A stretch of 36,657 bases of DNA from a virus: positions 1-36,657 of the IMG/VR virus record IMGVR_UViG_3300042331_000354; one strand, 5' to 3'. The notes under the pieces were generated by a model. The model was given only the letters and a program-made list of their open reading frames with translations. It ran no database searches and had not been told where the DNA came from. Made by a program: the position numbers and the translations under genes. Positions 5,461 through 21,121 of the stretch are shown one piece after another (position 1 is the stretch's first letter; the number at the start of each line of letters is the position of its first letter).

Positions 5461-6185
5461 TTTTACGAGTCGGGAATTTGAAACGTCCGAACAACGAAGC
5501 CGTGGTAGTTCCATCGTACCAGCCAGTTTATGATTTCACGCGCAGAGTAACCTCAATGCGTATTCGGTGGGATATCTCTGGTCGCGTAGTCAATTTTCCA
5601 ACCGCCTCGCAAATGCTGACATCGGCAGAAGTGATTGCACTGTCGAATGCGTTTACAACTGAAAATCCTTATTTGGCCTTGCTTGGCGATGACGGTACAA
5701 CGCCGACACCGTTTGTTCTCGACCCGTCGCGATGCTTGCAAGGACCATATTTGATCGATATGTCGTTTCCCGCATCGGAACAAGAGGTCTATGTGACCGG
5801 TCTTTCCTATCGCGCGGTGTTCGAAGCTGTCCAGTATGTAGGAGTCGGATCAGACTTACTTGAGTTTGAAGAAACGCTGTCCGAGGATCCTGGCGGAGCA
5901 ACCTACGTTTATGTAGGCGGTGCTGTCAATTTCGCTGAGCGTCAGCTTGCAACGCAACAAAAGACGTACAAGTACACTCAAAGCGGTTCTGCCTTGGGCT
6001 TGCTGGCGTATCCATTGCGTCCGCCACCAATCTGGCCTTTCGCTTTGATGCAATCGCCAAGGAATGAGCTTTCCTCACCGCAATTTAAGGGTACGATCGA
6101 CACTCACTTTCGAACCGTTTGGGAGTACAATTTCGAGTGGCATACAAAATTGATCGGTGTTCCGCATAGAAGTCCACTAGGATAA
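5457..6185 (+). CDS. Distal tail / minor tail protein
   Basis: This 242-aa protein starts by ATGA overlap with the tape measure stop. Directly downstream of the tape measure is the standard place of the distal tail protein, the hub that ends the tube and carries tip proteins. The sequence is beta-rich and ends in aromatic-rich segments (FRTVWEYNFEWHTKLIG), in keeping with a structural protein. No specific family motif is recognised. Confidence 0.55.
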   Translation: MILRVGNLKRPNNEAVVVPSYQPVYDFTRRVTSMRIRWDISGRVVNFPTASQMLTSAEVIALSNAFTTENPYLALLGDDGTTPTPFVLDPSRCLQGPYLIDMSFPASEQEVYVTGLSYRAVFEAVQYVGVGSDLLEFEETLSEDPGGATYVYVGGAVNFAERQLATQQKTYKYTQSGSALGLLAYPLRPPPIWPFALMQSPRNELSSPQFKGTIDTHFRTVWEYNFEWHTKLIGVPHRSPLG

Positions 6186-6188
6186 ATC

Positions 6189-7427
6189 ATGGCAACAAAA
6201 TATTGGGTCGGTCGAGCAGCTTCGGTCGCACAAATAACGAAGGTTGTTTTTTCTTCGATCGTTGCGACAAACACGTATTCGGTGACGATCAACGGAAAGT
6301 CAGTCAGCGTTACAGCGACAGGAACCTCGCTTGGGGATCTGATCGATGCACTGGTCAACGCCTGGAACAGTTCCGCAGAACCGGAACACCGCGAGATGGT
6401 CGCGGCTCGGCGCGAGGATCCAACGCTTTCTGGATTGCAACTGACTGCAACTACGGTCGGAGTACCCTGCACAGTCACAGCATCGGCGACGACCGGAACA
6501 GCGACCGTGACCGAGCCAACCACAGCGAGCGGTCCGAACTTTTGGAACGTGGCAGGCAATTGGCTCGGAGGTAGTCTTCCGGCTGCTGCCGATGATATCG
6601 TGGTTCGTGATTCGTCGGTGTCGATCCTCTACGGGCTGACTGACACGAACAACTACGCAAGCCTGAAAATTGAATCGACGTTCACCGGTACCGTGGGCCT
6701 TCCGGACACAAACACTAGCGGCTATCCGGAGTATCGAACTACACGGCTGACGCTGGGGACTGGCTCGGCATTGACTGTCCTGCTTGGCGAGGGCTACGGT
6801 AATTTTTCGAGTCGTATTCGACTAGATGTACAGAGTTCCAATGTTACTTTTTCTGTCTTGGCAGCAGGGACACAAGGTGGCGTTCAGTATCCGTTTGATC
6901 TGAGGAACCTGGGAACCGGATCGACGGTCCGGGTTTATGCTGGTGGTCTTGTGATTGGCAATTCTAGCGCGGTTACGATCGCAACGCTCGACATCATTCA
7001 GCGAGACACGCTGCAAATCCCTCCATCGGTTTTAGTTCAAGCAGAGGTCACGGTCACGGCTTTGACGATTTACGGCGGGACTCTAATACAAGAAGGTCCG
7101 GCCACTACGTTAATAGCACGAGAACAGGCCAGGGTGACAGTGGCAAAGGCTGCTGCGATCGCAACCGTGAAAGTATCCTCGCAAGCTAGGATCGATTGGG
7201 ATTCTTCTGGTGGGATCACCACAAAGCTGCACGTTGAGCAAAACGGAACGATCGACTTCGGTCGCGTAGGAACTACTAAAACAGTCGCAGCTTGCGATCT
7301 TTATGCAGGCGGTGTGTTGCTCGATCGGCTTGATAAGGTCACGTTTACCGCAGGCGTAGCGCTACAGGCGTGCCGTCTGGCCGATGTGGATCTCGATCTT
7401 GGTGTCGGGGTGACAATCAATGGCTAA
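6189..7427 (+). CDS. Repetitive beta-rich tail protein
   Basis: This 412-aa protein is rich in Thr, Val, Gly and Ser with regular short beta segments from residue 110 to the end (for example TRLTLGTGSALTVLLGEG), which suggests a beta-helix or beta-solenoid. The segment FWNVAGNWLGGSLPAAADD resembles the WNxxxNWxGGxxPxxxDD motif common in autotransporter-like and planctomycete surface repeat proteins. Location in the tail module suggests a tip or side fibre that contacts the host surface (inference). It follows the previous gene after 3 bp and overlaps the next by 8 bp. Confidence 0.6.
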   Translation: MATKYWVGRAASVAQITKVVFSSIVATNTYSVTINGKSVSVTATGTSLGDLIDALVNAWNSSAEPEHREMVAARREDPTLSGLQLTATTVGVPCTVTASATTGTATVTEPTTASGPNFWNVAGNWLGGSLPAAADDIVVRDSSVSILYGLTDTNNYASLKIESTFTGTVGLPDTNTSGYPEYRTTRLTLGTGSALTVLLGEGYGNFSSRIRLDVQSSNVTFSVLAAGTQGGVQYPFDLRNLGTGSTVRVYAGGLVIGNSSAVTIATLDIIQRDTLQIPPSVLVQAEVTVTALTIYGGTLIQEGPATTLIAREQARVTVAKAAAIATVKVSSQARIDWDSSGGITTKLHVEQNGTIDFGRVGTTKTVAACDLYAGGVLLDRLDKVTFTAGVALQACRLADVDLDLGVGVTING

Positions 7428-9288
7428 CGCGCCACAGGGCAAGTTTAGGTATGCGGGGATTTGGGCCGATGGAGATTTCTCCGTTTCGCGGACGGGTTCG
7501 ACACAACCCGATTTGATTCGCGCTCAATTCGTGCTCGCTGCGAACTTGCCTCAGTATGGCGACATTGAGGTTTGGTATGGTGATAATTTCATCCGAATCC
7601 CAAACTGCCGACTGCTGCAACAAACGATCCAGGGTGGTTCAGGTGGAAGATTTCGAGACGTTGACTTTTTAGACACCCGATGGATTTGGTCCTACACCTA
7701 CGGGTTTGGAAACACGAATGTTCAAAAGCGCATGTTCGGTTCCTGGTACAATCTTTTCCATAAAGAGCGTGCTGAAATTGTTAGAGAGTTTTTTCAGTTG
7801 CTTGGGTATGCTCCGCTAGTTTTTCCTGCTGATGCCTTTTTCGAGATGGACCCTCAGTTGTATGGCGTCTTGGCTGACTCAGATTCTTACCATGCTGCAA
7901 ACCATTTTGATGGCCGTCCATTGCCAGAGTGCATCGAAGAAGTACTACAGCCTTTCGGCGTGCAAGTCCATTTAGGATGGGATAATCAAGTACGGCTTTA
8001 CGGGAACGGGTACGGCAGAGATATACCGCAAGATCAACGAGTAATGGACTACACGATATCGAGCACCCCTCCAATCATTCCAGAGGTTCTTGCCTATGAG
8101 TTTGCGAACGTAAACTTTGAAAACGACTTCAAGCTCGAAGCTGTTGGCTACCTTTGGGACGAGACAACGAATTCTCCGACAAAGAAATTGGTTCCTCTAT
8201 CAGCTTTGAATTACGGGCCGCGAGATCCGGTCACAAACGAAATCGACTGGTCGCTAGCTGACCCTCCATCGTTCAACAACATCAAGAATAAGAAGCTGAA
8301 AGATTTGTGTCGGAAGACCATTTTCAAGCTATATCGCATTGATGCTTCTGTACGAACCGAGTTGGTCACGCCATCGTTTCCTAGCATTCCTCCAAAAGCA
8401 AACATTCAATTTGACGCAACTGATTTTGTGTTTTTCGACCCAATTCGTATCAACGTTCCTGCTCAGACCGCACCTGTAGCATGGAAGCAATGGGGTGCCG
8501 GTCGAGAATTCAATCGATTGCTTTTTGATAACGAAGCAGACGACGACCTAAAAATCTATGGATGGTTTGCAGATATTACGCTTCACCAGAAAAACAACTA
8601 CACTCCGGCTGCTGACGAGAAAATACCAGTCGGAGAGTTTCATCGATTCCCGGATGCCGAGATGCGAACAGATCCGTTTGTTGATCGGTGCTATAACGGG
8701 CGAATAAATTTCGATCCTGAAACGATGACAGTTGAACTAGATGATCAATTGGTTTTGATTAACAGGAATGCCGGGGCTGTGCAGGCGCGAACCTACAGAC
8801 CTGCAGAGTTGATTTTGCGAGCTAGGCACAAGCTACGAAGGAACAAAGATTTTGAAATCATTCGGTACGTTGCTCCGGTACCGATCAACAGTCCATACGC
8901 TGCGCGAGGTATCGTGGAAAAAATACGGATCGATGATCCTGTGCACATCGATCGGTTTCATCCACAATCTTTTGATCGCTTGGTCAACCAACTTTCGGTA
9001 CTGACGCAGCAGTACATGGCCTCGAAACGAATGATCGAATCGGCAACGGTTCCCATGAAGGGCTTTGCGTTCGACATTGCAACAGACGGAAAGATTTCTA
9101 CGGTGACGTTTCAAAGGTCCGGGGGGCAATGCACGACCTCGGTACAATGGCAAAATGAAAATCCAACCTTCCAACCCACCTACAAAGAGTTGGTCACAGC
9201 AGTCCTTCGACGTTCACAAATGCAGCAGATGAGCGTTGCGACAGCAAAACAAAACTTTCGCTTGAATTGGTTCACAAACACTAAGTGA
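7420..9288 (+). CDS. Large tail tip / hub protein
   Basis: This 622-aa protein lies downstream of the tape measure and the distal tail candidates, where siphophages encode the baseplate hub or central fibre base. The middle section (around residues 165-200) with VLQPFGVQVHLGWDNQVRLYGNG is reminiscent of phage tail hub domains, which often carry such predicted beta modules. No peptidoglycan hydrolase motif is visible. The start overlaps the preceding gene by 8 bp. Function is inferred from size and order. Confidence 0.5.
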   Translation: MANAPQGKFRYAGIWADGDFSVSRTGSTQPDLIRAQFVLAANLPQYGDIEVWYGDNFIRIPNCRLLQQTIQGGSGGRFRDVDFLDTRWIWSYTYGFGNTNVQKRMFGSWYNLFHKERAEIVREFFQLLGYAPLVFPADAFFEMDPQLYGVLADSDSYHAANHFDGRPLPECIEEVLQPFGVQVHLGWDNQVRLYGNGYGRDIPQDQRVMDYTISSTPPIIPEVLAYEFANVNFENDFKLEAVGYLWDETTNSPTKKLVPLSALNYGPRDPVTNEIDWSLADPPSFNNIKNKKLKDLCRKTIFKLYRIDASVRTELVTPSFPSIPPKANIQFDATDFVFFDPIRINVPAQTAPVAWKQWGAGREFNRLLFDNEADDDLKIYGWFADITLHQKNNYTPAADEKIPVGEFHRFPDAEMRTDPFVDRCYNGRINFDPETMTVELDDQLVLINRNAGAVQARTYRPAELILRARHKLRRNKDFEIIRYVAPVPINSPYAARGIVEKIRIDDPVHIDRFHPQSFDRLVNQLSVLTQQYMASKRMIESATVPMKGFAFDIATDGKISTVTFQRSGGQCTTSVQWQNENPTFQPTYKELVTAVLRRSQMQQMSVATAKQNFRLNWFTNTK

Positions 9289-12083: not shown

Positions 12084-12560
12084 GCGAGACCAACCAACCA
12101 GCACCGAGAATTGTAGCAAAGTGATCTGTCAGCTTCAAGCGATAAACTAGATCGGGGCAAAACTCGGATGAAAAAATTCTTGGAAGTGCTGCCTGCGTGT
12201 GTGCGTCGAATGATCCGACAGGGAGCTAGCGGCTGCGGTCCATACCGCAGAGGGATAGTCTCGGACGCAATCTGAGGCGAGCCGGTTCGACCGGCGACTG
12301 GCAGGGGCTCGCAACCCCGCATTGGATTTTTTGCGTGGTAGCTAAATCCGGGCTCTGTCCAACCTGACAACCCGGTCCAGGACACCGAAAGACGCATCGA
12401 ATCCGAGTCCCTGGGGGTCAACATGCCCCTGGCGCTGCTGCAATTTGGCTGGCTGTACCTGTCCAGGGCTGGTGTCCTGGGACAAAGGGCGGGCGCGCGC
12501 AGGGCCGAAAAAACCAAAAAACGGCTAAAAAAAGGAATCTTGCTTTTTTTTCTGCTGGAC

Positions 12561-17899: not shown

Positions 17900-18702
17900 T
17901 GGGCTTTTCAAACGGAAAAACATTCATAGGCGAAACACACGAGGCGTATCATCGCCGGGGTGAGATTTCAGCCTCGATGGTTAAGACGCTGCTGGAATCG
18001 CCGGAGGAATTCTACTGGACGCACGTTCAGAAGCGACCGACAAAATCGAGCCAAGCGATGGACTTCGGTACCGTGGTCCATGAGGAACACTTGCTGGCGA
18101 TTTGGGAGCAGTCCTGGGTTCAGATTCCACGCGAGGCTCTGTCATCGAATGGAGCTCGCAGAGGCTCGGCTTGGGAGTCCTTCAAGCGAGAGAACGAAGG
18201 CAAGATCCTGCTCAAAGAGGATCAGACCGAAAAGCTGAAATGGATCCGCGAAGCCCTGGAAAACAATCCGCTGGCAAGGGAGCTGCTTGAAAGGGAATCG
18301 ATCAACGAAATCACGATCACGGCAGACGCTCCGCTAAGCGACGGGACGGTTCAACCGGTGCGAGGCCGGATCGACAAGCTGCACTCAGCGATCGTTGACC
18401 TGAAAACCTTGTCCGACCTGGACGACCGGACGGTGCGGTACAGGCCGTTGGACCACAAGTGGGATATCCAGGGGGTCAACTACCAACTGCTGGTCCAGTC
18501 GATTCGCGGCGGGTCGCTGCCCGATGTATACTTCATCGGAGTTGAAACGTCGGTCCCGTTCCGATGCGAGGTAATTTGTCCGCTTCAACAGACCTTGGCG
18601 GCGGCTGCGATCCTGTTGCAAGAAGCGATCGAGGAAATCGTCGCAAGGACAAAAAGCGGAAATTGGCACCGAAATGGATGGCCGGAAGCTTTAACCTTTT
18701 GA
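17899..18702 (+). CDS. RecE-like PD-(D/E)XK exonuclease
   Basis: This 267-aa protein has the RecE C-terminal/DUF3799 type layout: YHRRGEISASMVKTLLESPEEF near the start, GTVVHEEHL (57-65), then GRID (D159) and D167-L-K169 as the metal-binding core, and QGVNYQLLVQ (191-200) as the conserved Q/Y motif. Such enzymes resect double-stranded DNA 5'-3' to expose single strands for an annealing protein. The partner would be the ERF protein at 22497. Start is at the TAATG overlap. Confidence 0.8.
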   Translation: MGFSNGKTFIGETHEAYHRRGEISASMVKTLLESPEEFYWTHVQKRPTKSSQAMDFGTVVHEEHLLAIWEQSWVQIPREALSSNGARRGSAWESFKRENEGKILLKEDQTEKLKWIREALENNPLARELLERESINEITITADAPLSDGTVQPVRGRIDKLHSAIVDLKTLSDLDDRTVRYRPLDHKWDIQGVNYQLLVQSIRGGSLPDVYFIGVETSVPFRCEVICPLQQTLAAAAILLQEAIEEIVARTKSGNWHRNGWPEALTF

Positions 18703-18705
18703 TTC

Positions 18706-18715
18706 GGTGGCGTTA
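18706..18715 (+). promoter_or_regulatory. Promoter-like motif GGTGGCGTTA, copy at 18706
   Basis: It lies right after the nuclease stop and 45 nt before the secreted protein start, preceded by CTTTAACCTTTTG. Confidence 0.6.
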
Positions 18716-18760
18716 GTAGTTTGTAGATGGTTTGTGTTTTGTTCCTCAAGGGAGATTGTT

Positions 18761-19171
18761 ATGAAGCGTTTTTTGTTGGCAAGCTGGATGCTTGCGGTGG
18801 CGACGTTGCCTGCGTTCGCTCAAGAATGCACGACGGGCCGGTGCTTTAAGCCGGTGGCGACGGTCGCTCAGGCTGCGGTTGCAGTTCCGGTTCGGGTTGC
18901 CGAAACGGTTATCTGCGGAACCCAAGAGCTTCGGTCGGTGTTCTGCTCAAACGGGTTGGCGCAGTGGAAGGCTGAACGACAAGCTGCGAGCGGACGTTGC
19001 TATCACGTTGGCGGCGGCTTCGGTGGCGGTCGCGCTGAAGGGGTTGGGTACAGTCCAACATCGGCTGAGGCTGCGATCCGAGCGTGCTGCTACTATGGCC
19101 GCAGACCGGTCAGGGAAATCGGCGTAGCGCAGGGTCGTCGGGGCTGGTACGCGACAGTGATTTACGAGTGA
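18761..19171 (+). CDS. Small secreted protein
   Basis: It starts at ATG 18761 with AGGGAGA upstream (136 aa). The N-terminus is a classical signal peptide: MKR, hydrophobic core FLLASWMLAVATLP, and a probable cleavage after AFA. The mature part has seven cysteines and a C-terminal domain GGGFGGGRAEGVGYSPTSAEAAIRACCYYG, a pattern I associate with small secreted proteins of planctomycetes. It was probably taken from a host. It could alter the cell envelope or act in superinfection exclusion, but that is speculation. Confidence 0.75.
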   Translation: MKRFLLASWMLAVATLPAFAQECTTGRCFKPVATVAQAAVAVPVRVAETVICGTQELRSVFCSNGLAQWKAERQAASGRCYHVGGGFGGGRAEGVGYSPTSAEAAIRACCYYGRRPVREIGVAQGRRGWYATVIYE

Positions 19172-19512
19172 TCCATGCTCGGCAGTTGGATCGGGAGAGG
19201 CTGACTGCTGAGGGTGTACGGTGCTTACGGACAGCACGGCTGGATAAACGTAACCAGCATTGAGGTGAGTAAACGATGTGACCTCTAAACCTCATCGGGC
19301 GGCAACTGCCTAAGTTGCGAGGATCGGCGGCGCGATCTACCGCACTGGGAACCAGGGCCGAAAGGTTACATTCCCAGGAACGTAGACAACCCAAGCAGGT
19401 AGCCAATCCTGCCCGATCCTTTTGGTCGACGGTTGGAGCCTAGCGATACTTCGGGCTTCTTAAGTCGCGGAAAGAATATCGGTGGCATCACCGACGGACC
19501 GTCGACCTTTTT
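19172..19512 (+). ncRNA. Candidate structured RNA
   Basis: This 341-base stretch has no convincing gene but many inverted repeats in close order: GTGCT/AGCAC, GCTGG/CCAGC, GAGGT/ACCTC, GCAACT/AGTTGC, GATCG/CGATC, CTGGGAA/TTCCCAG, GCAGG/CCTGC. It ends in a long-range 9-bp stem followed directly by T5 (separate entry). It lies on the transcript that starts at the 18706 motif and ends just before the next gene. This looks like a folded RNA or large leader; I recognise no known class. Confidence 0.45.
19424..19512 (+). terminator. Three-way-junction RNA element ending in a T-run
   Basis: GGTCGACGG (19424-19432) pairs perfectly with CCGTCGACC (19499-19507), and TTTTT follows at once. Enclosed are a hairpin with GCG..ACTT/AAGT-CGC (19443-19468) and one with TCGGTG/CACCGA around GCAT (19479-19494). 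The layout is that of a closed multi-branch RNA acting as a terminator or riboswitch-like switch 24 nt before the next gene. Confidence 0.5.
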
Positions 19513-19530
19513 ACCTTTTACCTTTTGGAG
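19507..19530 (+). repeat. Repeated leader with CCTTTTACCTTTTGGAGC, copy 1
   Basis: It holds tandem CTTTTTAC/CTTTTAC units followed by TTGGAGCAATG. The same kind of leader precedes the next three genes (19733, 20144, 20551). Confidence 0.65.
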
Positions 19531-19535
19531 CAATG

Positions 19536-19721
19536 ATGGCCCAGATCGACGACAATCAACACGATGACGGACCTGAGCCGTCGTGCCTAACTTGCGGCGG
19601 CGAAGGCTTTGTGGACTCGGTTAGTGAAGCATCTGGACGACGGGGCTGGGATGACGACGGGCCTGGACCATGCCCAAACTGCAACGGAAGCGGGCTTAGG
19701 AAAGACCAGCAGGTTTTCTAG
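19536..19721 (+). CDS. Small zinc-ribbon protein with DnaJ-like CxxCxG motifs
   Basis: I choose ATG 19536 (61 aa) because GGAG is 6 nt upstream; ATG 19533 is directly adjacent. The protein has CLTCGGEGF and CPNCNGSGL, two CxxCxGxG motifs as in the DnaJ zinc-finger domain, separated by an acidic loop. It probably folds around one zinc ion. A role in protein or nucleic-acid binding is likely, but nothing more specific can be said. Confidence 0.65.
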   Translation: MAQIDDNQHDDGPEPSCLTCGGEGFVDSVSEASGRRGWDDDGPGPCPNCNGSGLRKDQQVF

Positions 19722-19732
19722 CATCCTTTTTA

Positions 19733-19743
19733 CCTTTTACCTT
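19733..19743 (+). repeat. Repeated leader ATCCTTTTTACCTTTTACC, copy 2
   Basis: It has the tandem CCTTTT(T)AC units but then diverges and lacks the TTGGAGC ribosome binding site present in the other copies. Confidence 0.5.
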
Positions 19744-19761
19744 CAATTGTTATCGTGCTTT

Positions 19762-20130
19762 ATGAAAAAACTGACGCGGCCATCAAGTGGCGTAGAAGAG
19801 TTACAGATTGCAAATTGCCCCTGTTGCGTTGGCGAAGTGCAAGTTGGCGATTGTGGATATTCGTCGTTCAATCCAGGATACGCAGAGTGCGAGAACTGCA
19901 AACGCAAGTGGTCGTTTCCAAGCGTCCGCGATTCGTGGGAAGCAGGGCAGCTATGGAACGATCTTGCAAAGCGGATTCGCCACAAACTCGAAGTGCTGTC
20001 GTGGATCGGAGTCAAGGCAAGCCAGTCGATCATCAGTCGTGACTTTGCGGCGGAAAAGCTGCAAGACGAGGCGAAGTTGTTGCTGAAAGAATTTGAGGAA
20101 ACCGTAATTGGGGCGGACAAGCCTAGATAA
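19762..20130 (+). CDS. Zinc-ribbon protein resembling restriction alleviation protein Lar
   Basis: It starts at ATG 19762 (122 aa). CPCC at 23-26, CENCKRKW further on and the following SVRDSWEAGQLWNDLAKR match the Lar-type layout (CPFCG ... CxxCGA ... A-I-xx-WN). Lar of the Rac prophage modulates type I restriction. The C-terminal half is a long charged helix. The protein is longer than typical Lar (about 60-80 aa). Ribosome binding site is poor. Assignment is tentative. Confidence 0.55.
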   Translation: MKKLTRPSSGVEELQIANCPCCVGEVQVGDCGYSSFNPGYAECENCKRKWSFPSVRDSWEAGQLWNDLAKRIRHKLEVLSWIGVKASQSIISRDFAAEKLQDEAKLLLKEFEETVIGADKPR

Positions 20131-20143
20131 CGAAAACGCAAGA

Positions 20144-20175
20144 CCGATCCTTTTACCTTTTACATTGGAGCAATC
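20144..20175 (+). repeat. Repeated leader CCGATCCTTTTACC, copy 3
   Basis: CCGATCCTTTTACCTTTTAC is followed by ATTGGAGCAATC and the ATG at 20176. A related CCCGATCCTTTT also occurs in the structured stretch at 19412. Confidence 0.65.
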
Positions 20176-20550
20176 ATGGCAAGATACTTAAGAAAATCAA
20201 ACTGGGTCGAGGCTAGGCAGTTCACGACAAACAACGACCCAGGCAACCAGGAGATGGATTCGATCGTCGTTTGGCTCAGTTCCAACGGAACAAAAGCAAC
20301 GCACGACGGCACAACGATCAAGATCCAGGACGCAAGCGACAAGCTAGTAGAAATCAATGTCGGCGATTGGATGGTTTACGACCACAAGGGCAGGCTATCT
20401 GCCCCGGTCGCGAAATTTGTTTTTGCTGAGGATTTCGAGGAGTGCAACCATTCTTTGGAACCGGTCGACGATTCCAATTACGATCAGTGTTTAGATTGCG
20501 GCGAAATTAAGCCGTATGAGCAGCAGTATTTCGGCGATGAGGTTTTGTAG
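20176..20550 (+). CDS. Phage protein of the GDW-type small family
   Basis: This 124-aa protein has RKSNWVEARQFT at the start and VEINVGDWMVYDHKGRLSAPVAKFVFAEDFEE, which resembles a widespread phage family with a xxVxxGDWIVKGxxGEFYPCKPDIFEATYE motif. Function of that family is unknown. A C-terminal extension holds a CNHSLEP..CLDCG Cys/His cluster that may bind zinc. The start has TTGGAG 6-7 nt upstream. Confidence 0.65.
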   Translation: MARYLRKSNWVEARQFTTNNDPGNQEMDSIVVWLSSNGTKATHDGTTIKIQDASDKLVEINVGDWMVYDHKGRLSAPVAKFVFAEDFEECNHSLEPVDDSNYDQCLDCGEIKPYEQQYFGDEVL

Positions 20551-20575: not shown

Positions 20576-21121
20576 ATGGCCCTGAAAAATGTGATCGTTG
20601 CTTTTTTGTCGAGCCGTGGGGGGCTGATCGTCCTTTCGGCGGTGGTCGCTGTGATCGCCAGGATCGTGCTGTGGCCGCTGACAACAAGGGACTGGGTTAT
20701 CGCTGGTTTGATTGTCGCGCTGTGGCCTACGTTCGAATACGTCGCCCATAGGTGGTTCTTGCACGAATGGACCTGGACACCGTTTCGCAAGACGCATGAT
20801 CGGCACCATGACGAGCCGACAACCGAAACGGGGTTGCCGGACCTGTGGGTGATCGCTGATTACTACTTGCTGTCGGTGGCGTTTGCGTTCGCAACTCCAG
20901 GAATGTACACCGCACACGCTACGGTCGCGGTGATGCTTTCGGTTTACGAGTTCATCCACTTTTCTTGCCATTGCAACTACGAGCCAAAAACGTGGTGGGG
21001 CTGGTCGGTTAGAGTGAATCACTTGCAGCACCACCGACTGCAAAGCGCAGACAGGTACGCGATGTCGCTACCGATTTTAAGGGTCAAGGGAAAAGAAAAT
21101 AAAGAGGTAAAAAGTGACTAG
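20576..21121 (+). CDS. Fatty acid hydroxylase / sterol desaturase superfamily membrane enzyme
   Basis: This 181-aa integral membrane protein has about four hydrophobic segments and the full histidine set of the di-iron superfamily: H58-x4-H63, H74-x2-H77-H78, H128-x3-H132 and H149-x2-H152-H153. These bind two irons and catalyse O2-dependent hydroxylation or desaturation of lipids, sterols or carotenoids. The small size suits the carotene-hydroxylase/fatty-acid 2-hydroxylase-like branch. It is a likely auxiliary metabolic gene that changes host membrane lipids or pigment. I cannot tell the substrate. It has the leader shared by its three upstream neighbours. Confidence 0.85.
   Translation: MALKNVIVAFLSSRGGLIVLSAVVAVIARIVLWPLTTRDWVIAGLIVALWPTFEYVAHRWFLHEWTWTPFRKTHDRHHDEPTTETGLPDLWVIADYYLLSVAFAFATPGMYTAHATVAVMLSVYEFIHFSCHCNYEPKTWWGWSVRVNHLQHHRLQSADRYAMSLPILRVKGKENKEVKSD

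Follow-up and report, generated by a model that had tools for sequence, protein, structure and literature searches.

The untranslated stretch at positions 19172-19512 (+) of the window, the whole 36,657-base IMG/VR record analyzed here, is an RNA array of three independently folding modules: an element designated E1, a tRNA-like unit and a closed domain, Part B. Judged by comparison with related sequences, all three are shown to be conserved structures and E1 to be a widespread phage RNA element, with its core in at least 117 non-redundant contexts, mostly as one copy per record. The alignments likewise show that the material lying 3' of E1 and inside closing stems is exchanged between phages as cassettes. 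E1 may be a new cis-acting phage RNA, located at the junction of untranslated, exchangeable and probably RNase-processed cassettes and acting via a general host factor, a reading to which we tentatively give somewhat less than an even chance. The features discussed are as follows.

18703-18716 (+): repeated intergenic motif TTCGGTGGCGTTAG, found upstream of genes
18761-19171 (+): upstream gene, coding for a small protein with an N-terminal signal-like (secreted-like) sequence, used as the anchor for finding relatives
19174-19216 (+): E1 hairpin H1, 15 pairs, directly after the stop codon of the upstream gene
19217-19260 (+): E1 core, with UACG at 19217-19220, stem A 19221-19225/19233-19237, a bulged G at 19238 and stem B 19239-19258
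19302-19318 (+): linker hairpin GCAACU-GCCUA-AGUUGC, also present in locus L011, where it precedes the same type of unit
19321-19419 (+): tRNA-like unit, with acceptor GGATCGG 19321-19327 / CCGATCC 19413-19419, T-arm GCAGG-tagccaat-CCTGC 19395-19412 and a non-tRNA interior
19424-19507 (+): Part B closed domain, outer stem 19424-19433/19498-19507, recovered by RNAalifold
19435-19440/19454-19459 and 19479-19484/19489-19494 (+): Part B hairpins, inside the outer stem
19461-19478 (+): Part B invariant strand AAGTCGCGGAAAGAATATCGG, common to five further phage loci
19508-19512 (+): U-run after Part B, the first bases of linker CCTTTTTACCTTTTACCTT
19533-19721 (+): zinc-ribbon ORF (CxxCxGxG), Pfam DnaJ_CXXCXGXG with E 2.9e-4, below the gathering cut-off

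Genes of the record include those for a helicase, methyltransferases, the large subunit of terminase (33341), an exonuclease (17860) and an annealing protein of Erf type (22458). The array lies between the gene at 18761-19171 and the zinc-ribbon ORF, which is the next gene, as had been noted earlier, and which is missing from the corresponding place in the closest relative, L003. The upstream gene has 12 homologous loci (59-98% identity), its protein matches no Pfam or PHROG family, and blastn of 18700-20200 against sequenced phages gave no similarity. The motif noticed earlier at 18706 was confirmed: the window contains 9 near-matches of TTCGGTGGCGTTAG vs 0.23 expected, and the motif likewise precedes genes in the relatives. 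Its core, CGGTGGCGTT, occurs on the + strand at 12560, 13822, 16334, 17631, 18705, 22424, 34853 and 36358, mostly just 5' of genes, and is a candidate promoter or operon-start signal specific to this phage group. Other repeats were observed ahead of consecutive small genes, where the linker CCTTTTTACCTTTTACCTT...GGAGCAAT(C/G)ATGGC recurs at 19506-19524, 19725-19743 and 20148-20166. The short sequence CCGATCCTTTT is found at 19413, 20144 and 20551, and two linker places open with this same CCGATCCTTTT that forms the 3' end of the tRNA-like unit, as if the small-gene cassettes had been joined to old RNA 3' ends. The phage gene further on, at 20585-21118, has a Pfam match to fatty acid hydroxylase (PF04116, E 1.2e-10).

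The unusual folding of 19172-19512 and its coordinates were confirmed. On the + strand, the predicted free energy is -135.3 kcal/mol vs -116.4 +/- 5.1 for dinucleotide shuffles (z -3.69, 0 of 100 shuffles as good), and the sub-stretches 19180-19422 (z -3.79) and 19420-19512 (z -3.36) also fold better than their shuffles. As the reverse strand folds about equally well (z -3.62), the strand was decided by comparison and not by energy. No tRNA was called by ARAGORN in this stretch, and Rfam 15 gave no family match for it, even at E<=5. The earlier note had seen one RNA here, and a single multi-branch fold, pairing 19188 with 19419, is energetically better than the sum of the separate modules (-135.3 vs -120.2, with module limits that trim two bases off the tRNA-like unit), but it was rejected as having no comparative support; what is found is, instead, an array of separable, exchangeable modules.

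E1 (module 1) spans 19174-19260, and its core follows the pattern NCG-stem A-GCYGG[AYAAACGUAA or ARACGUAA]CCRGC-A, stem B of the window being GCUGG-AUAAACGUAA-CCAGC (19239-19258). Stem A directly abuts stem B in most instances, while the window has one extra G between them; in most scan matches, the hairpin that abuts stem B on its 5' side is of unrelated sequence and is preceded by CG. A structure alignment (A3) of the window and the 12 relatives having E1, covering the 15-bp hairpin, the short stem A and stem B, has double-sided changes in 8 pairs, whereas shuffles give 1.5 and slid partners no more than 3; in H1, 6 of the 15 pairs are changed on both sides. Across phages, 32 aligned E1 sequences, picked for a stem A of 4-5 bp and hence biased towards pairing, have 98.2% of cells paired, a covariation score of 0.401 vs 0.122, and 59 cells with changes on both sides, a number that falls to 17 on shuffling and to at most 10 on sliding. 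Independent of that selection is a reshuffling test on the 117 listed contexts: stem A has at least four Watson-Crick pairs in 65% of them, and reshuffled 3' strands reach a mean of 6.3% and a maximum of 13.7%. A covariance model trained without the window finds the window copy at 19217-19260 with 32.9 bits (E 1.1e-4). The 5' CG is invariant in the 32-sequence set and complementary to the CG of the loop; a pseudoknot between the two, whose bases never vary, is possible.

For Part B, the 9-bp stem 19424-19432/19499-19507 proposed earlier is present (10 pairs plus a U-G), with two hairpins inside and TTTTT following it, and RNAalifold recovers it unprompted from the window and four further loci. 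The outer stem is comparable in these four of the five further Part B loci, and the fifth, L132, has the same core with a tRNA-like closing stem. Compensatory changes in this stem had been named beforehand as decisive, and they were found among five sequences: six pairs are changed on both sides, of which the first hairpin has three and the outer stem the other three (columns 1-89 and 3-87 with A-U/G-C, columns 7-82 with A-U/G-U/G-C). Although the set consists of only five sequences, shuffles and slides do not reproduce these changes. A pseudoknot between a loop and a strand, seen by eye, is possible in Part B, for which Rfam has no family match. A terminator call in its vicinity concerns only a 5-bp, short-loop hairpin (19492-19504), the 9-bp stem enclosing more than 60 nt, and the terminator sites found are of a chance number.

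Stem A, H1 and Part B could covary only under selection for base pairing. Their covariation thereby largely refutes the proposal that the array is neutral debris, with decayed tRNA genes and terminators gathered at a variable spot and E1 a short repeat spread by recombination, as does the persistence of the stems while interiors change. Several observations fit such decay, namely the lack of a tRNA model match for the window's tRNA-like unit, the unconserved interiors, and the slight advantage over shuffles in the folding of several relatives' arrays (z -0.2 to -2.6), and we consider it very improbable. The suggestion of the earlier note that the stretch is a new structured phage RNA is, on the other hand, borne out by the compensatory changes in the stem and first hairpin, the covariation of the 5' part, the phage-wide core and the absence of an Rfam match.

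In the tRNA-like unit at 19321-19419, the 7-bp acceptor stem and the 5-bp T-arm are in register. The unit has no anticodon arm with a 7-nt loop, its interior folding as one long arm, and a true tRNA in the window was rejected given the lack of both an ARAGORN call and a tRNA covariance model match. The preceding linker hairpin region is 88.6% identical to that of L011 over 35 nt (blastn). Combined acceptor and T-arm units of 65-132 nt occur in most arrays examined, the window included (control DNA, 0.43/kb), and most are followed by TTT or TTTT. Their acceptors differ yet pair: GGATCGG/CCGATCC, GAGCCGG/CCGGTTC, GGGCCGG/CCGGCCC, TCCCTGT/ACAGGGA and GCTCCGA/TCGGAGC. In most of the 12 relative loci, an untranslated region directly follows the stop codon of the upstream gene. 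E1 of the relatives is followed by true tRNAs (L008, 56.9 bits; L006; L009), tRNA-like units or other folded pieces. Phage tRNA arrays are thus a close comparison, as relatives' arrays contain true tRNAs and E1 stands just before tRNA genes in P1 and in Bordetella phage IFTN6, whereas the window unit has just the acceptor stem and the T-arm, whose 8-nt loop is non-canonical.

Related structures were observed elsewhere. Two tRNA-like units (L006 768-885, which scores 39.9 bits as a tRNA, and L013 4432-4546) have an insertion of ~50 nt between anticodon arm and T-arm. Enterobacterial and aquatic prophages have untranslated arrays of up to ~1.2 kb with nested tRNA-like and hairpin units (L042 ~6300-7700, L016 ~5500-7500, L052 3700-4800), some of which follow an antiterminator-Q-like gene. 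The hairpins GCGYAGGCUGAURCGC and GCYNG-AGAUCAGCA-CNRGC recur in these arrays and have complementary loops; inspected by eye, a kissing-loop scaffold (GGCUGAU x AUCAGC) is possible in the enterobacterial ones.

The distribution of E1 was established with exact-core scans, which returned 103 viral stretches with a 10-nt stem-B loop and at least 120 further ones with an 8-nt loop; since an exact core was demanded, they undercount the family and understate its variation. Among the 117 listed contexts, 23 have no convincing stem A and are possibly chance matches. The carriers include P1, Sashavirus, Taipeivirus, Bordetella and Enterobacter phages (among them Enterobacter phage Tyrion), E. coli phage ECO1230-10 and many prophages. 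In P1 (AF234173), E1 is located at 68988-69026 in the ban leader, 3 nt ahead of tRNA-Asn, and in IFTN6 it is ahead of tRNA-Arg; other copies are found after SSB-like ends and before or after terminase genes. About 450 of 5,426 E. coli genomes contain a matching sequence, mostly as weak partial matches at a permissive cut-off, and the one genome inspected, with prophage L259, has a clear E1 according to the model (47.3 bits). E1 is found closing untranslated stretches as well as opening them (P1, E. coli prophage L259), which counts against the cis-acting reading.

The genes lying 3' of E1 are completely different from one instance to the next (terminase subunits, tail, regulatory, tRNAs, or nothing), which is unlike a ligand sensor. 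The riboswitch-like leader considered in the earlier note is therefore unsupported, there being no consistent set of regulated genes across E1 instances. This independence from particular genes points to a general host partner. ORFs 3' of E1 are co-directional with it in a ratio of 67:15, based on crude contig ORF calls, as expected for an RNA element. ARAGORN tRNAs begin 4-8 nt 3' of E1 in 8 of the 117 listed contexts. Over the whole set, T-arm-like motifs reach 0.35-0.50/kb within 300 nt of E1 vs a background of ~0.05/kb. The enrichment of terminator-like sites 3' of E1 is not clear; if anything, there are more of them upstream.

Exchange is best seen between the window and L003, whose flanks are 91-94% identical. 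Their alignment breaks off at 19259, one base past stem B, and is back only at 19394-19432, comprising the T-arm, the acceptor 3' strand and the 5' strand of the Part B stem, and at 19499-19540, with the 3' strand of that stem. As the similarity is confined to stem strands, the stems have been kept and their interiors replaced. L008 and L009 are 92.5% identical around E1, and L008 has an insertion of ~300 nt that starts 3 nt after E1; in other pairs, similarity is lost at +5 and at +90, and in one it continues to about +273. Among the listed instances, clustered with thresholds set by hand, 17 upstream clusters are each found with two or more downstream segments (9 at most), and 10 downstream segments each with two or more upstream clusters; no complete four-gamete set was found among the clusters. 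Several phages have a closed domain, with a stem of 15-22 bp, beginning 1-4 nt 3' of E1, and high-scoring closing stems follow E1 in 13.8% of cases, compared with 2.1% for shuffles and 2.6% for control DNA.

These junctions could also be explained by E1 acting as DNA, as a site of insertion or recombination that forms a hairpin, in the manner of an integron attI, and receives structured cassettes. The breaks in similarity 0-5 nt after E1 in several close pairs, the clean ~300-nt insertion in L008 vs L009 and the reassorted flanks all suit this explanation, but E1 orientation matches that of the downstream gene, no recombinase gene was noticed linked to E1, and attI/attC cores were sought by eye (neither search being systematic). 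Ordinary phage recombination could, moreover, make do with the homology of stem B, an Erf-like protein and an exonuclease being encoded nearby, and a DNA site is distinctly improbable. In the cis-acting reading, the conserved stem B of 18-20 nt, beside phage recombination genes, would also offer a natural place for crossovers and thereby account for the reassortment.

E1 is oriented like the gene behind it yet has no fixed gene partner and, therefore, most likely acts as an RNA on something universal in hosts. Its function is most likely antitermination or RNA processing. It would act in cis on the nascent transcript, via a host factor shared by many bacteria, for which RNA polymerase or the termination machinery is the likeliest candidate, as for the HK022 put RNA. 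Antitermination at E1 would allow the untranslated RNA stretches and the genes behind them to be transcribed, and the long closed stems and tRNA-like tops may offer handles for host RNases (P, III, Z), by which cassettes would be cut from the mRNA.

The put RNA is a nascent-RNA antiterminator (PMC9378689) of the phage leader, ~70 nt in length, with a long stem II. It works through the zinc-binding domain of the RNA polymerase beta' subunit. Like E1, with its stems A and B, it has two abutting stem-loops in leader RNA, and the inferred put sequences likewise begin with AACG before stem I (sites deduced by aligning two HK022 early regions), whereas the E1 core is ~40 nt long with a short stem B and an invariant loop. 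The E1 model found no match in HK022 24-36 kb, the early region holding put, so that the parallel is one of architecture only; as the alignment-derived put sequences also differ, E1 was rejected as a put member. Because no relation to put was found and downstream terminators are not clearly enriched, the antitermination step is one that we infer. A bolder proposal, in which E1 is an unrecognised RNA class that serves highly diverse phages across many bacteria, acts directly on the transcription machinery of the host and also provides the fixed end of an exchange system for folded RNA cassettes, is quite unlikely.

Alternatively, E1 could be mainly an RNA-processing or stability element that positions RNase cleavage or protects a new 5' end, transcription being unaffected. 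In a subset of phages, its location 4-8 nt 5' of tRNAs or 1-4 nt 5' of 15-22 bp closed stems argues for this role, as do the tRNA-like acceptor/T-arm tops, which are RNase P-type shapes. Many E1 copies, however, directly precede an ORF, with no tRNA or closed stem nearby, and the invariant loop of 8-10 nt suggests a specific partner over a generic RNase site; this alternative is conceivable, though on balance unlikely.

The C4 RNA of P1/P7 and the CI RNA of P4 are leader RNAs processed by RNase P, with antisense or regulatory products. They resemble the present arrays in that untranslated leaders of phages adopt tRNA-like or RNase P-type shapes; the E1 core is not known to be part of either. 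The proximity of tRNAs also recalls the theta (HDV-like) ribozymes of gut phages, which adjoin phage tRNAs (PMC10879173). A compact fold, the possible CG x loop CG pseudoknot and the invariant loop would fit a comparable small self-cleaving ribozyme beside tRNAs, but there is no Rfam ribozyme match and E1 lies 5' of the tRNAs, whereas the theta-ribozyme study concerns tRNA 3' processing, making such an identity highly unlikely. GOLLD and ROOL are large, ornate noncoding RNAs linked to phages (PMC12286853), compared with which the window RNA, phage-linked as well, is far smaller and modular, with no Rfam match. Finally, dicF and dicF-like prophage leaders (PMC5069750) offer a parallel in that the E1 of P1 lies in the ban leader and the P1 record annotates a 'dicF-like region' upstream, but the two are separate stretches, and Rfam DicF has no match in the E1 loci of P1 and L259. 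The Rfam families DicF, GOLLD, ROOL and the ribozymes were all rejected as identities, with no covariance model match.

Rfam 15 has no family for E1, the window or the E1 regions of P1, IFTN6, Sasha and others, and the open-licence literature gave no description matching such arrays, E1 or Part B. E1 can therefore be regarded as a new RNA family among the structured leader and intergenic RNAs of phages, and its unusual trait is that its neighbors are exchanged as RNA cassettes. A strongly covarying RNA of ~40 nt, found in over a hundred independent settings in phages, P1 included, and lacking an Rfam family, would constitute an unclaimed regulatory element, and its presence in P1 makes it directly testable in a model phage. 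With folded interiors swapped between kept stems, phages exchange RNA domains like protein modules, which may explain the variability of phage tRNA and noncoding regions and is of relevance to transcription, RNA processing and phage mosaicism.

Some E1 loci contain further elements. Weaker second E1-like copies were observed at L008 4604-4645 (26.9 bits, loop AAACGUAA), L256 2882-2921 (19.1) and L025 4022-4071 (18.0). Rfam matches in E1 loci include Burkholderiales-2 RNA in Bordetella phage IFTN6 (L258 56-129, - strand) and int-alpA RNA in Enterobacter phage Tyrion (L257 2787-2851).
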